Positions 3,605 to 10,397 of a stretch of DNA of 46,408 nucleotides are shown here, piece by piece (position 1 is the first letter of the stretch; every line of letters starts with the position of its first letter). The translations under genes were made by a program, and so were the position numbers. The notes under the pieces are model-generated. The model was given only the letters and a program-made list of their open reading frames with translations. It ran no database searches and was not told the origin of the DNA. Source of the DNA: a bacterium (GTDB taxonomy: Bacteria; JAGOBX01); NCBI GenBank assembly GCA_029551925.1, contig JAKPEO010000098.1, forward strand, positions 1 to 46,408, written 5' to 3'.

Positions 3605-3727
3605 ATGCTTAAAGTCTTACAGAAAACTAACGAAATAAAACTTCGTGGGCGTGTATTTATTCCTTCAGATATAGAAACCATAAATGGGGTCAGACGTCTT
3701 GAAAGTCTCTTTTTTTATTATTATTGA
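3605..3727 (+). pseudogene. 5' fragment of an unknown gene cut by the MITE-like repeat
   Basis: An ORF starts at the ATG at 3605 with a promoter and an AAAGGCG sequence upstream. It encodes MLKVLQKTNEIKLRGRVF and continues to about residue 26 before it enters the palindromic repeat at 3682, where it runs out after another 14 residues of repeat-derived sequence. A start with expression signals but no body fits a gene whose 3' part was displaced when the repeat or island arrived. I do not recognise the family, and 26 residues are too few to be sure it was ever a gene. Confidence 0.3.
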
Positions 3728-3768
3728 TAAAATAAAAAAAATAAAAAAGTTGCGATTAATTTTCTTGA
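3681..3768 (+). repeat. 88-bp direct repeat, copy 1 (left edge of restriction island)
   Basis: Bases 3681-3768 are identical, base for base, to 9888-9975. The repeat covers the left arm and AT-rich middle of the palindromic element. The match stops at the first two bases of the right arm. Confidence 0.9.
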
Positions 3769-3792
3769 CTTTCAAGACGTCTGACCCCATTT
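3682..3792. mobile_element. MITE/REP-like palindromic element with perfect 26-bp inverted repeats
   Basis: The left arm (3682-3707, starting AAATGGGGTCAGACGTC) and right arm (3767-3792) are exact reverse complements over 26 bases and enclose 59 bases of AT-rich sequence. The arms resemble the GGGGTCAGACGTC-type palindromes linked to REP-associated IS200-like transposases. The right arm ends on the base before the hsdR stop codon (3793-3795), so a transcript of hsdR would run straight into this hairpin, which may serve as its terminator. No transposase is encoded inside, so any movement would be in trans. Confidence 0.75.
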
Positions 3793-6700
3793 TTATACTC
3801 CAAAAAATCGTTCAAAAAAGCGTGTTAATTTATTTAAAACAGTCTCACGTTTTTTGGAGCGTTCTCCGTCCGGCGAAAAACGCGACACAGGTGGCAAAAC
3901 TTTGGCAAGAGCGGTGCCTGTGGTTGCAATACTGCCATTACGAAATGCGTTATTTACAAATTTATAAGTTTCATCGTGATCAAGATTTTCCTGCTGAATA
4001 ATCGCCTCAAGTTCTTCAATCTTTTTCTGTTCCACATACTTCTGCCACTCTTCATCGACCACAGAATGAGCATCAAGCGAATCTATAAATTGATTTATAA
4101 GGTCTTTTTTGTTGCGCAGTTCAACGCTTGAATCTATTGCTTTATTAATGTCTACGAGCAGTTCGCGGTTCTTGATGTGGTTTTCGTGATATTTCTTAAT
4201 AAGTCCTAAAATATAATCAATATTAATTTCCACCTGTTTAATAAGTTCCATTTCAAACACGAGATCGTCGTTTATATTTTCCTTTTCGCACTCACCAGAT
4301 TTGCGAAACTCGTTATAAAGATCAATGTAAGCGCTATGATAGTCCTGGACATCTCGCTCAGACAAAATTTCATTGCCTTTAAATTCATCAAAAGTAACCA
4401 GGATATTTTTTAACCGTAAAATAGCCCCATAAAGCCGAATAAATTCTTTTTTATTTTTCTCGCCTATAATCTGCTCGCCAACCGGATATTTTTCTAAAAG
4501 TTCTTTAATTAAGTCAGCATATCCGCGAACTTCTTTATCGCCATCTTTATAGCCGTTGTAATAGTCATTATAAGATTTCAAAAGAACAATGCCGCTAGCT
4601 TCCTTATCGCCAAAAAGTGCAATCGCTTCATTGGTCGCTTTTTCGAGATTGCGGAAGCATACTATGTTTCCAAATGTCTTCACAGTATTTAAAATACGGT
4701 TAGTGCGCGAATATGCTTGCAAAAGCCCGTGCAATCGCAGATTTTTATCCACCCACAAGGTATTAAGCGTTGTAGCGTCAAAACCAGTCAAAAACATATT
4801 AACCACAAGCAAAATATCCACTTCGCGATTTTTCACACGCTCGCTGACATCTTTGTAATAATTTTGAAATTTATCAGATGAAGTATCATACGAAGTTCCA
4901 AACATAGCGTTATAGTCTTTGATGGCATTTTCAAGAAAATCCCTTGAGCTTTTATCCAGATCGCTGGTGTCTTCAGAATTTTCGTCTATCATTCCGTCGA
5001 TTTCTTCTTCGTTTACGCCAAAACTATAAATAAGTGCAATTTTCAGTTTCTTATCGCTTGGCGCATCTGCCAGTTGTCTCTTGAATTCTGCGTAATATTT
5101 CTTTGCAACTTCAATGGACGATACTGCAAAAATAGAGTTAAACCCGGCAAGCCGGCGGTCTTTGAGTTTGTAAAAGATATTCCGTTTAGTTTTTTGGTCA
5201 AAATGTTCAAGGATATATTTAACAATATTTTCTATACGCTGTGGCGCATTGAGCGCAGATTCGCGGTCAATATCTTGCACTTTTTTGTCTTCTATATCTT
5301 CAGCTTCACGCACTGTTGAAACATAATCTACTTTAAAAGGCAAGACATTTTTATCAGCAATAGCGTTCACAATGGTATAGGTGTGCAATTTATCTCCAAA
5401 TACCTGCTCTGTTGTCTTTAAATCAGGGCGACCGCTTGATGATGCGTTGACTGCAAAAATAGGCGTGCCCGTGAAACCAAAAAGATGATAGTTCTTAAAT
5501 GCTTTGGTAATAGCAGCGTGCATCTCGCCAAATTGTGAGCGATGACATTCGTCAAAAATCAACACCAAATGACCGTCAAAAATAGTATGCCCTTTGTTTT
5601 GTTTGATGAAACGTTCGAGTTTTTGAATAGTAGTGATGATGATTCGCGCGTTTTTATCTTCAAGCTGGCGTTTTAATATTGCCGTGCTGGTATTGCTGTT
5701 AGCCGCGCCTTTTTCAAACTTATCGTATTCACGCATAGTCTGGTAATCAAGGTCTTTGCGGTCAACGACAAACAGCACTTTGTCAATGTAAGGCAGTTTG
5801 CTTGCAAGCTGCGCAGTCTTGAAACTGGTTAAGGTTTTACCAGAACCGGTCGTGTGCCAGATGTAACCGCCAGCCGAAACAGTGCCAAGTTTTTTATAAT
5901 TAGTGCTTATCTCGATTTTATTTAATATTCTTTCTGTTGCTACTATCTGGTAAGGCCGCATTACTAAAAGTTGTTTTTCTGTTGTAAACACACAATAACG
6001 CGTAAGTATATTTAAAAGCGTATGTTTTGCAAAAAAGGTTTTTGTGAAATCTACAAGGTCATTAATTGGCTTATTATTCGCATCAGCCCACCAGCTTGTA
6101 AATTCAAAACTGTTGCTTGAGCGTTTGCCTTTTTTAACAACGCCTTCGCGTGATTCCCTGATATGTTCCGAACGCGTTGTATTGCTGTAATATTTTGTAT
6201 GTGTGCCGTTAGAAATAACAAAAATTTGCACATACTCAAAAAGTCCAGAACCTGCCCAAAAACTCTCGCGCTGATAACGGTTAATCTGATTAAATGCTTC
6301 TTGAATTGCCACACCGCGCCGTTTAAGCTCAATATGCACAAGCGGCAAGCCGTTGACCAGCACCGTCACATCATAGCGGTTTTTTCGCGCGCCATCTTCA
6401 TTTGTGTATTGGTTTATTACCTGCAAATTGTTTTCGTGAATATTATCTTTGCGGACCAGATAGACATTTTTGACAGTGCTATCGTCGCGTTTAAGGTTTT
6501 TTATATAATCTTCCTGAATCGTGGCTGTCTTTTCGGCAATACTTTGGTTAGGATTGGTTATTTCTGTTTTTAAAAAATGCGCCCATTCTTTATCAGTGAA
6601 TGTAAAATCGTTTAATTTTTCCAATTGCTTACGCAAATTATTTATCAAATCAGCTTCAGAACTGATTGATAAATGCTCATAACCTTGCAATTTCAACTGC

Positions 6701-6831
6701 TCTATAAAAGCGCGTTCAAGCTCCGCTTCGCTCTGGTAAGATTTTTCAGCGCGATATTGCGCCTTATATTCGGCAACTACCGTGCTTTTAGGATTTTGCG
6801 CCACTAAGTTGTATTTATGATTAGTTGGCAT
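3793..6831 (-). CDS. hsdR: Type I restriction enzyme endonuclease/translocase subunit HsdR
   Basis: A 1012-residue motor and nuclease subunit of a type I restriction-modification enzyme, which cleaves unmodified DNA after ATP-driven translocation. The N-terminal PD-(D/E)xK nuclease site is D154 (RYDVTVL) with E168 and K170 (HIELKRRG). The helicase motifs follow: Walker A HTTGSGKT with K332, DEAD-box-like DECH at 427-430, and later GFTGTP and LLVVNMFLTGFDA. I chose the ATG at 6829-6831 (MPTNHKYNLV) because a GGAGA ribosome-binding site lies just before it; the longer frame to 6900 lies inside hsdS. The gene overlaps the end of hsdS by 11 bases, as in a translationally coupled operon. Its stop codon touches the palindromic element. 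The gene looks intact and full length. Confidence 0.96.
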   Translation of the reverse strand: MPTNHKYNLVAQNPKSTVVAEYKAQYRAEKSYQSEAELERAFIEQLKLQGYEHLSISSEADLINNLRKQLEKLNDFTFTDKEWAHFLKTEITNPNQSIAEKTATIQEDYIKNLKRDDSTVKNVYLVRKDNIHENNLQVINQYTNEDGARKNRYDVTVLVNGLPLVHIELKRRGVAIQEAFNQINRYQRESFWAGSGLFEYVQIFVISNGTHTKYYSNTTRSEHIRESREGVVKKGKRSSNSFEFTSWWADANNKPINDLVDFTKTFFAKHTLLNILTRYCVFTTEKQLLVMRPYQIVATERILNKIEISTNYKKLGTVSAGGYIWHTTGSGKTLTSFKTAQLASKLPYIDKVLFVVDRKDLDYQTMREYDKFEKGAANSNTSTAILKRQLEDKNARIIITTIQKLERFIKQNKGHTIFDGHLVLIFDECHRSQFGEMHAAITKAFKNYHLFGFTGTPIFAVNASSSGRPDLKTTEQVFGDKLHTYTIVNAIADKNVLPFKVDYVSTVREAEDIEDKKVQDIDRESALNAPQRIENIVKYILEHFDQKTKRNIFYKLKDRRLAGFNSIFAVSSIEVAKKYYAEFKRQLADAPSDKKLKIALIYSFGVNEEEIDGMIDENSEDTSDLDKSSRDFLENAIKDYNAMFGTSYDTSSDKFQNYYKDVSERVKNREVDILLVVNMFLTGFDATTLNTLWVDKNLRLHGLLQAYSRTNRILNTVKTFGNIVCFRNLEKATNEAIALFGDKEASGIVLLKSYNDYYNGYKDGDKEVRGYADLIKELLEKYPVGEQIIGEKNKKEFIRLYGAILRLKNILVTFDEFKGNEILSERDVQDYHSAYIDLYNEFRKSGECEKENINDDLVFEMELIKQVEINIDYILGLIKKYHENHIKNRELLVDINKAIDSSVELRNKKDLINQFIDSLDAHSVVDEEWQKYVEQKKIEELEAIIQQENLDHDETYKFVNNAFRNGSIATTGTALAKVLPPVSRFSPDGERSKKRETVLNKLTRFFERFFGV

Positions 6832-7990
6832 TTTGCATCTCCAACGGCTTAAAAGTGAGCAGTTTGTTGCGGTAATATTCGTATTGTTTGCGTCGGGCAT
6901 TGAGTTCCGCAGGCAATCCTGCTGTTAGGTCATTGACCAAAGCGTCAAATTTGTCTAAAATAGCAACGATGCGTTCTTGCTCCACAAGCGACGGGATGGG
7001 AATTTTTGTTTTCTTCAAAAAACTAAAGTGCCTTGTGTATTTTCCTTTTTTTTCATAAAAATTATTCAACACATAATAAAAATATCGTGCATTTATTATA
7101 TCACTCTTCGTCGTTAAAACCTTTATGCCATCGGCACCTTGAGCGAATGTAAAATCTACATATTTTATTAACTCCGTATGATCCCCAAAAATTACATACA
7201 AGCCATTTGCGACCACAGCATTTCTATCATCCGTATAACCAACTATAAATTTTTGCCCTTGATCTATAATTGGAAATGTTCCAATTGGACTGTAATGTTT
7301 TTTATTCAGTTTTTTTGGAGGATTAACAGTAGCTACAACTTCATTTTCTATTAATGTACAAATATCCTTAAACTCCACTTCATCCCCAAATGTCAACAAC
7401 TTATTTCTATAATACTCATACTGTTTTTTTCGCGCCTCCAGCTCCGCCTCCAGCTCCGCCTCCAGCTTGGTAAAGGTGTCCAGAATCTTCACGATCTCTT
7501 GCTGAACGGTAAGCGGCGGGATGGGAATACGAAAATTCCTCAAATTTTGTTGAGTAATTTTTGGAATATTGCCTTTAACAACCTTCGTAACATCGATTGT
7601 AGAAAGCGCAAAATATACATATCGTAAAATTGCTATTTCTGCTTTTTCAGCTAATACATGAGCGTGGTTATTCACCCATATTTTTCCTGTCGCCCAATTT
7701 AATACGGGTGAGCCATCTTTATTTATCACACTACCATCTTCACCAAGCAAAATGAAAGTCCCATCAAAGATATAATCATCAACATAATCCTGTATACCGT
7801 TTGCGCCATAATATGGGTATATCCCGCCAGTTCGTTTTAATTTTGAAACTGGCCTGCGTTGACTATCTAAAATATTTACAACCTCCCCCAGCTCCTTAAA
7901 CTCCACCCCATCAGGGCAAAGTTCGGCAATCAACTTTTCAATTTTATTCATCTTTTTTTCATTCTTCATTAACCGTTCACCATTATTCAT
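6821..7990 (-). CDS. hsdS: Type I restriction enzyme specificity subunit HsdS
   Basis: A 389-residue DNA-recognition subunit with the usual two target-recognition domains. TRD1 covers about residues 30-155 and TRD2 about 205-350. Each is followed by a conserved helix ending ARKKQYEYYRNKLLTF (centre) or ARRKQYEYYRNKLLTF (C-terminus), the parts that bind HsdM. The central helix carries the repeated LEAE units described separately. The second TRD looks more AT-rich than the helices that flank it, consistent with TRD exchange between strains. The ATG at 7990 is two bases after the hsdM stop, with GGAAGG 12 bases upstream; MNKIEKLIAELCPDG at 7948 is the more usual family start, so the first 14 residues are uncertain. 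Target sequence cannot be predicted from here. Confidence 0.94.
   Translation of the reverse strand: MNNGERLMKNEKKMNKIEKLIAELCPDGVEFKELGEVVNILDSQRRPVSKLKRTGGIYPYYGANGIQDYVDDYIFDGTFILLGEDGSVINKDGSPVLNWATGKIWVNNHAHVLAEKAEIAILRYVYFALSTIDVTKVVKGNIPKITQQNLRNFRIPIPPLTVQQEIVKILDTFTKLEAELEAELEARKKQYEYYRNKLLTFGDEVEFKDICTLIENEVVATVNPPKKLNKKHYSPIGTFPIIDQGQKFIVGYTDDRNAVVANGLYVIFGDHTELIKYVDFTFAQGADGIKVLTTKSDIINARYFYYVLNNFYEKKGKYTRHFSFLKKTKIPIPSLVEQERIVAILDKFDALVNDLTAGLPAELNARRKQYEYYRNKLLTFKPLEMQNAN
7433..7464 (-). repeat. 12-bp tandem repeat encoding LEAE units in the HsdS central spacer
   Basis: The 12-base unit CTGGAGGCGGAG (coding strand) occurs twice and then in a partial third copy, giving LEAELEAELEAR between the two halves of HsdS. 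In the type IC enzymes EcoR124I and EcoDXXI, gain or loss of the comparable TAEL repeat changes the spacer length in the DNA target. Confidence 0.8.
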
Positions 7991-7992
7991 TA

Positions 7993-9573
7993 TTATTCAT
8001 TGCCTTCCAAGTCCGCTACAATCTCATCAATCGCTTTGCGCAGTTTGTTCTGCCGCTCAACAATTTCTTTTATCTCGGCGTTGAGTTTTTTAATATCAAT
8101 TACCTCGCGGGTATCTTTTTGTGCTACATAGGTGGATACCGCGATATTATAGTCGTTCTCCGCTATGGTTTTATTGTTCACCAGTTTGGCAAAATGTTTG
8201 ATGTCTTTTCGCTCTTTGAAAGCGTTTAATATTTTTTCGCGGTTTTCCTCAGTCAACTTATTCTTATTACCGCCACGCACAAATTCAGCTGACGCGTCAA
8301 TAAACAGCGTTTTATTGTCATTCTTGCTTTTCTTTAGCACGATTATGCAGGTTGCGATAGTTGTGCCAAAAAAAAGGTCAGGTGGAAGTTGGATAACCGC
8401 GTCAATATAGTTGTTATCTATAAGATACTTGCGAATCTTCTGCTCTGCTCCGCCACGATATAACACTCCGGGAAATTCAACAATTGCCGCAGTGCCGCTG
8501 GTGGAAAGCCAAGAGAGCATATGCATTGTAAAAGCAAGGTCTGCCTTGCTTTTAGGCGCCAACACTCCTGCCGGCGCAAAACGCGAGTCATTAATAAGCA
8601 GCGGATTGCTGTCGCCTTCCCATTTTATAGAATACGGCGGATTAGATACTATTGCGTCAAACGGCTCGTCATCCCAGTGCTTAGGGTCGGTCAGCGTATC
8701 GCCGTGCGCAATATCAAAATGATTGTAATTGATATCGTGTAAAAACATATTGATACGGCAAAGGTTATAGGTTGTTAAGTTTATCTCCTGACCAAAGAAT
8801 CCAATTCGAACATTTTCTTTGCCGAGAATCTTGGCAAACTTCAAAAGAAGCGAGCCGGAACCGCAGCACGGGTCATATACTTTATTTACTTCCTTTTTGC
8901 CTACAGTTGTCAGTAGCGCTAACAGTTCGCTTACTTCCTGCGGGGTAAAAAATTCGCCACCGGATTTGCCAGCATTAGAAGCATACATAGTCATCAAAAA
9001 CTCATAAGCGTCACCAAATGCGTCAATACTGTTATCATTATAGTTGCCATTGCCCAGTTGCATATCTCCTATTGCATCCAACAGTTTAACAAGTTTTTGA
9101 TTTCTTTTTTCTACGGTATTGCCTAATTTATTGGAATTAACATCAATGTCATCAAACAAACCTTTAAAATCATCTTCGCTGTCAGTCCCCTTAGCTGAAT
9201 TTTCAATATTACGAAATACGCGGGCAAGAGTTTCGTTAAGATTTTGGTCATTTTTTGCATTTGCGCGGACATTGCAAAAAAGTTCGCTCGGTAAGATATA
9301 AAATCCTTTTTCTTTGATAGTATCCGCTCGACCGAACTCGGCTTCTTTATCCGATAATTTAGCATAATCAAAGTCTTTATTCCCGCTGCGCCGCTCGTCT
9401 TCATTAATGTAATTTGTCAGGTTTTCACTGATAAAACGATAAAAAAGCATCCCTAAAACATATTGCTTAAAATCCCAGCCGTCCACACTGCCGCGTAAGT
9501 CATTAGCAATCTGCCAGATAGCGCGGTGCAGTTCCGCGCGTTCCTGCTCTTTGGTTTGGTTGTTATTTGCCAT
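7993..9573 (-). CDS. hsdM: Type I restriction-modification DNA methyltransferase subunit HsdM
   Basis: A 526-residue N6-adenine methyltransferase that, with HsdS, protects the host DNA using S-adenosylmethionine. The N-terminal helical domain runs to about residue 160. The catalytic domain then shows [10 protein letters not shown], the AdoMet-binding motif [10 protein letters not shown], and the catalytic NPPY at residues 311-314 ([10 protein letters not shown]), typical of N6-adenine enzymes. I chose the ATG at 9571-9573 (MANNNQ) because TGAGGAA lies seven bases before it; an upstream ATG at 9585 would place that site inside the gene. It is first in the operon hsdM-hsdS-hsdR, two bases before hsdS. 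Nothing is missing or broken. Confidence 0.96.
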
Positions 9574-9697
9574 ATTTTTCCTCACTTTTTCTTTTTGACC
9601 GTTCTAAACAACTGATGTTTTTTCTTTTTAAATTGGCGTTTCTATTTTTTTTCTAATTCTAAATAGAAAAGTAACTTTTTTTTAGCCATTAGGAAAT

Positions 9698-9725
9698 ATA
9701 TTATAAAAATTAGTGTCTAAGTCAA
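9698..9725 (-). promoter_or_regulatory. Candidate promoter of the hsdMSR operon
   Basis: On the minus strand: TTGACT (9720-9725), 16 bases, TAATAT (9698-9703), about 125 bases before the hsdM start. No other match as good lies between here and the gene. Confidence 0.5.
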
Positions 9726-9787
9726 GCGGAAAAAATTGCAAGAAAGAAAAAAGAAATTTAAATGGCTTTTTTTATTATTTTTCTGAG

Positions 9788-9809
9788 AAAATAGGGACAG
9801 TTCTATTTT
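9788..9809. repeat. REP-like palindrome (AAAATAG-N8-CTATTTT)
   Basis: Seven-base perfect arms enclose GGACAGTT. The sequence ATAGGGACAGTTCTAT is of the kind found at ends of REP-associated IS200-like transposase elements. It lies with other repeat debris between hsdM and the transposase relic. Confidence 0.5.
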
Positions 9810-9873
9810 TTTTACGAAATTAAAGTTTCTTGCTACTCATTTTCACTGCATTTTTGCGGTTACATTCCGTAGT

Positions 9874-9899
9874 CTAAATGGGGTCACTAAATGGGGTCA
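9874..9899 (+). repeat. Tandem 13-bp duplication at the edge of repeat copy 2
   Basis: CTAAATGGGGTCA occurs twice back to back (9874-9886 and 9887-9899). The second copy runs into the 88-bp repeat, so the repeat arm is nested in a partial second arm, which suggests repeated insertion or end slippage at this site. Confidence 0.7.
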
Positions 9900-9975
9900 G
9901 ACGTCTTGAAAGTCTCTTTTTTTATTATTATTGATAAAATAAAAAAAATAAAAAAGTTGCGATTAATTTTCTTGA
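9888..9975 (+). repeat. 88-bp direct repeat, copy 2 (right edge of restriction island)
   Basis: Identical to 3681-3768. Here the right arm of the palindromic element is missing: after CTTGA the sequence changes to unrelated DNA (GTTTATCTAC...), so this copy is truncated. The rest of the gene-free stretch 9574-10085 is AT-rich DNA with the palindromes listed and no ORF that I can support. Confidence 0.9.
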
Positions 9976-10085
9976 GTTTATCTACAAATCTTATTAATTA
10001 TATGAAAAACTGCATTTAGATTAGATATGATATTCTTGGTCATCTCATAAACAATCTCGTTTTTAAAAAATTTACAAATAATCAA

Positions 10086-10397
10086 ATGTGCATTTGTGCA
10101 AGCCTGGCACTTATTTCTTTAAATAATAATAATAATAATTCTGAACTTACTATTAGAAACGCTGTCCTGCTTCGTAAAATTTCGTTTGGCTCACAATCTA
10201 TAAAAAGCGTTTCTATGGCAGCAATTTTTTTAACTGTGTTTGCCACTTTAAAATTGAATGGAATTAATCCGGTTGATTTTTTGTTAAATGCCATCAAATT
10301 GTATATTAAAACTAATTCATTGCATTTGATTCCATTCAAATTTACTTTCCAAAGGCTAAAACATTACTTATTTTTTTGCAAAATTCAAAATAAATAA
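10086..10397 (+). pseudogene. Transposase C-terminal relic (IS66-like)
   Basis: The open frame contains NNNSELTIRNAVLLRKISFG, then GSQS, FLTVFATLKLNGINPVDFLL. This matches the layout of the IS66-family transposase C-terminus: an Asn-rich stretch with the catalytic-Glu region (NNxxER-like, here NNSEL), R-x-x-V-x-x-RK-x-x-FG-x-x-S, a hydrophobic helix, then G-x-NP-x-x-L. The upstream part is gone; reading back in frame meets a stop at about 10019. Six AAT codons in a row (10122-10139) make part of the Asn run. It has no start signals of its own and no terminal inverted repeats were found, so this is a dead fragment. Family assignment is by motif pattern only. The following 280 bases (10398-10677) hold no gene, only the promoter region of the kinase. 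Confidence 0.55.

Follow-up and report, generated by a model that had tools for sequence, protein, structure and literature searches.

A probably acquired type IC restriction-modification operon lying between two short elements with TIRYT-type ends

The arrangement found in the analysed stretch of bacterial DNA (46,408 nucleotides, hereafter the window) is real and largely ordinary, namely a type IC restriction-modification (RM) operon, likely acquired, beside recent copies of a known kind of small mobile element. We consider it probable that the acquired operon has a short non-autonomous TIRYT-type element on either side of it, a reading that accounts for the conspicuous direct repeat at this defence operon with no need for a new type of cassette.

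Results and Discussion

An apparently intact type IC operon of likely foreign origin

The features of the locus are as follows.

3681..3792, no strand: left copy, a complete TIR dimer of 112 bp, of which 3681-3768 is the left repeat
3793..6831, minus strand: hsdR, type IC (EcoR124-like), with nuclease and helicase motifs; frame open from 6900, likely start ATG 6831
6821..7951, minus strand: hsdS, with two target-recognition regions and a short AELE spacer repeat; frame open from 7990, likely start ATG 7951
7993..9573, minus strand: hsdM methyltransferase, with intact DPCCGSG and NPPYS; GTG frame from 9585, ATG at 9573
9875..9887, plus strand: outer partial copy CTAAATGGGGTCA, 13 bases forming a tandem with the beginning of the right element end
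9888..9979, plus strand: right copy, the first 92 element bases with one mismatch, without the right-hand inverted repeat
9976..10118, minus strand: remnant of a further Y1-transposase family, the one seen on contig C91, identified by a sequence match and a terminal repeat

The genes hsdM, hsdS and hsdR are all present and uninterrupted with their catalytic motifs intact, and EcoR124 chains are the nearest solved structures of both HsdR and HsdM. The operon is thus apparently an intact type IC (EcoR124-type) RM system, whose activity is predicted from sequence. The HsdS spacer (window 7400-7470) has fewer AELE-type repeat units than its homologue in G018, a genome from outside the phylum; in EcoR124-type enzymes, differences in the number of spacer repeats change the spacing of the recognition site.

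The operon has a G+C content of 38.8%, compared with 32.2% in the left flank and 25-31% to its right (26.5% in the ~300 AT-rich bases between the hsdM start and the right repeat, and 29.5% in the right-hand kinase gene), and the third-position G+C of its genes (0.35-0.43) exceeds that of the neighbours (0.22-0.33). An impression recorded in the earlier note, that the hsd genes are richer in G+C than their surroundings, is therefore real (38.8% vs 30-32% in the adjoining DNA). HsdR shares 78% identity with its homologue in G018, whereas its best match in the single same-family genome compared is only 28%, and on this basis the operon was likely acquired horizontally from another bacterium. For HsdM, copies carried by Arthrobacter plasmids are 75% identical. 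The one other genome of the phylum compared lacks the operon and has no dehydrogenase clearly orthologous to the neighbouring one, and no such repeat end adjoins the G018 operon. A plasmid origin of the repeat itself was considered and rejected, the search among plasmids having returned one weak low-complexity match.

Two closely related copies of one element end

The repeats at 3681-3768 and 9888-9975, reported earlier as identical 88-bp direct repeats bounding the operon, are exact at these coordinates (88/88 identical, in direct orientation), and the match reaches 92 bases with one mismatch. Their 22-base core has 0.00 matches expected in shuffles with up to 3 mismatches allowed. Genome-wide element counts were obtained by sequence searches of the assembly (2,962,522 bases, or 2.96-Mb, in 131 contigs, 86% complete), from which further copies may be absent; in it, full-length 88-base matches occur at these two sites only, the next best being 88% over 58 bases. 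The operon was also said to sit exactly between the repeats, and this holds for the left side, where the element abuts the hsdR stop codon (3793-3795), but only loosely for the right one, where ~300 bases precede the hsdM start.

The left element consists of perfect 26-bp terminal inverted repeats (3682-3707 / 3767-3792) separated by a 59-bp AT-rich spacer, and can fold into a long hairpin (RNA folding energy of -52.0 kcal/mol for 3660-3830). Its present effect would be that of a strong hairpin placed directly after hsdR, and incidental. A short open frame (MLKVLQKTNEIKLRGRVFIPSDIETI...) within 3605-3720 enters the element and stops inside it, and is possibly a gene cut by the element insertion.

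The right copy has just one end. Beyond base 92 it diverges from the left copy, so that simple transposition of one does not account for the other. The adjoining 9976-10049 matches a portion of the transposase gene of the C91 family at 82% identity, and the terminal repeat of that family lies at 10088-10112. The same succession of two element ends recurs at C131 and C93:55943, and for this reason the right copy is best read, on the evidence of its sequence, as the start of a chimeric element joining the two families. Outer partial tandem copies (flank plus GGGGTCA or GTGTCA) were observed at window 9875-9900, at ~5440-5460 of L065 (C77), at ~1176-1200 of L053, and in L088 and L154; GTCA-ending partial tandem duplications of this kind are recurrent, being seen at C77, at C91 and at element ends of two or three further genomes, and they may mark the position of transposase cleavage.

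The two window copies, 6.2 kb apart, are each other's closest relatives. We consider it possible, though somewhat unlikely, that they represent two independent insertions of one element family on either side of an operon that was already resident and has no causal link with them. Such elements do occupy intergenic DNA, remnants of both families cluster to the right of the operon as well as at C93:55943, and confinement to tolerant regions may raise the odds of finding neighbours. Yet no other pair of copies in the genome approaches the similarity of this one (100% over 88), the two share 5 bases of outer flank, and uniform independent insertion would place two random copies at most 6.2 kb apart with a probability of ~0.004 (about once in 240). 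Because of this low chance we favour a local event, and the data suggest copying or recombination on the spot, possibly the operon's own insertion.

There is only a very small chance that an assembly artefact, i.e. a misresolved repeat graph with the operon and one copy really residing elsewhere or on a circle, created the pair. In favour of an artefact, the assembly to which the window belongs as a contig is fragmented, the exact 88-bp repeat is longer than small assembly k-mers, and a short-read assembler may have misresolved it; however, the unique flanks of both copies and their difference at base 89 imply at least two real copies.

The ends point to the TIRYT/TIRtron family

The window elements would be mobilised in trans: they possess the inverted repeats seen on contig C93 but neither a transposase nor any coding capacity. 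At C93:73829-74998, a gene for a 324-aa Y1_Tnp protein is bounded by the same 26-bp ends, with GGGGTCAGACGTCTTGAAAGTC at both of them, and a second partial copy follows at the contig end. The protein matches PF01797 above cut-off, carries the HUH motif NHIH at 59 and the class 2 tyrosine motif YIHLNP at 119, and among solved structures shows a weak match to TnpA-REP 4er8. Elsewhere in the genome, ends of this family are single and mostly degenerate (C131:28804, C93:55943, C77:5425). The same ends thus flank a transposase gene and occur at three further sites, which argues against the repeats being a dedicated cassette boundary, as had been proposed.

TIRYTs have been described as Y1 transposases with long flanking inverted repeats, many of them bearing GGGGWSAS (Di Nocera et al. 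2013, PMC3733652), and most were assigned to TnpA-Y1 subclass 2.1 with its Y[IV]HLNP motif (Quentin et al. 2018, PMC6006769). The window ends read GGGGTCAG and fit the GGGGWSAS motif; judged by this and by the transposase motifs, they belong to the described, widespread TIRYT/TIRtron family.

Relatives of the C93 protein were detected in 91 of the 290 genomes sampled. At about half of 29 related transposase loci in other genomes, the gene is enclosed by inverted repeats that match exactly over 20-29 bp, and several share the design of the ends (e.g. GGGGTCAGGTCTTGACATTTGACA). A gapped search of 386 genomes returned 121 GGGGTCAG...CTGACCCC dimers, spread over 29 genomes, compared with 3 for the reversed control pattern. 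Similar dimers of 80-110 bp are present in other bacteria, and many of the 121 have long complementary arms, so that short dimers of the left-copy kind are no rarity among bacterial genomes. Viral contigs contained no close relatives of the C93 transposase, the inverted-repeat pattern gave three scattered matches in GTDB genomes and viral contigs (none with a partner arm), and searching for the end sequence as text in the literature returned no relevant paper. Overall, TIRYT ends form a poorly studied class of transposase ends that can be recognised across many bacterial genomes.

How the arrangement may have arisen

In the reading that we prefer, with an acquired operon between two short non-autonomous TIRYT-type elements, the window elements would have been made in trans by a C93-type transposase, as their shared ends suggest, and the identity of the two copies would go back to a recent local event in which one gave rise to the other. 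On arrival of the operon, this may have been a recombination of the incoming DNA with a resident element or an insertion of the long-target-duplication type at that element; alternatively, the transposase may have copied the element over a short range afterwards. We give roughly equal odds to an event at arrival, of either kind, and to later short-range copying.

Long target duplication as the whole explanation, with the RM operon inserting into a resident element and duplicating ~88 bp of target, appears unlikely to us. The size of the repeat, its direct orientation and the RM cargo all fit, and RM insertions with ~100 bp target duplications have been described (PMC3874152 and PMC1643837, both citing Nobusato et al. 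2000), including for RM genes in Helicobacter pylori. On the other hand, the repeated DNA is itself a mobile-element end, the element end stands in exactly inverted form (3767-3792) at the left of the insert, a feature not expected from ordinary target duplication, and type I systems were reported to be less mobile than type II in a genome comparison (PMC3874152).

That the operon travelled as the cargo of two TIRYT ends mobilised in trans, in the manner of a composite transposon, is in our judgement very improbable. Element ends do stand on both flanks, and 3 of the 4 non-autonomous loci of the end family in this genome adjoin RM genes; but the right-hand inverted repeat is absent from the right copy, hence there is no properly oriented outer pair, and none of 33 similar dimers in other genomes lies within ~8 kb of RM genes. 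A composite transposon in the strict sense, with two complete outward-facing ends, was rejected on the same feature of the right copy. The repeat pair is not a working composite transposon and its present effects would be incidental, although its 88 bp of direct homology could in principle serve as a substrate for a rare deletion of the operon by one crossover. Of the initial proposal of a recent arrival, or of a cassette that can be excised or swapped, there remains that the operon looks acquired and that the repeats are recent mutual copies; the dedicated cassette boundary is not supported.

Element ends and RM genes

The RM genes beside non-autonomous end-family loci are of type I at C35, a type II methyltransferase with a type IIG enzyme at C131, and type III at C77, a proximity (3/4) noticed after the fact in an assembly with about ten methyltransferase loci. 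RM genes were found near 0 of 33 dimer loci in other genomes and in none of the 39 control stretches taken from those genomes, while the positive stretches were recognised in 23 of 28 cases, in a test in which some stretches were short contigs and the queries were the RM proteins of this genome only. A general link between the elements and RM genes is not supported, the dimers scoring the same as the controls. That TIRYT-type elements serve in this lineage as sites where RM operons land or are exchanged strikes us as quite unlikely. Incoming operons would then carry the short ends or recombine with them, leaving the RM systems at C35, C131 and C77 adjoining copies, and if true, this proximity would suggest a route for the exchange of RM systems.

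Two of these loci have features of their own. At C131 (L066:8086-12135), the type IIG enzyme gene holds an in-frame, stop-free Y1 transposase domain at about residues 560-800 of 1350, inserted behind methyltransferase motif I and followed by GTAG-tagged palindromes (GTAGCACAGACATTCCTGTCTGTG), which were read by eye. At C77 (L065), the type III locus has a RhuM/Fic-like gene between mod and res, and adjoins a fragment of a Mutator-family transposase together with an element-end copy.

Comparison with known systems

Direct repeats of ~100 bp around RM genes are a trait of RM long-target-duplication insertions that recurs here (88/88 identical); unlike in those insertions, the window repeat is a mobile-element end. 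With the EcoR124I family (type IC) the operon shares the M-S-R order, the EcoR124-nearest HsdR and HsdM and the short tetrapeptide-type spacer repeat of HsdS, with no structural difference seen. As in TIRYT/TIRtron elements, HUH and YIHLNP motifs are encoded by a Y1_Tnp gene, the TIRs are perfect, 20-30 bp long and bear GGGGWSAS, and gene-less dimers are dispersed in the genome. A difference is that the best-preserved non-autonomous copies are just two and bracket an RM operon, the right-hand one being joined to what is left of a second Y1 family.
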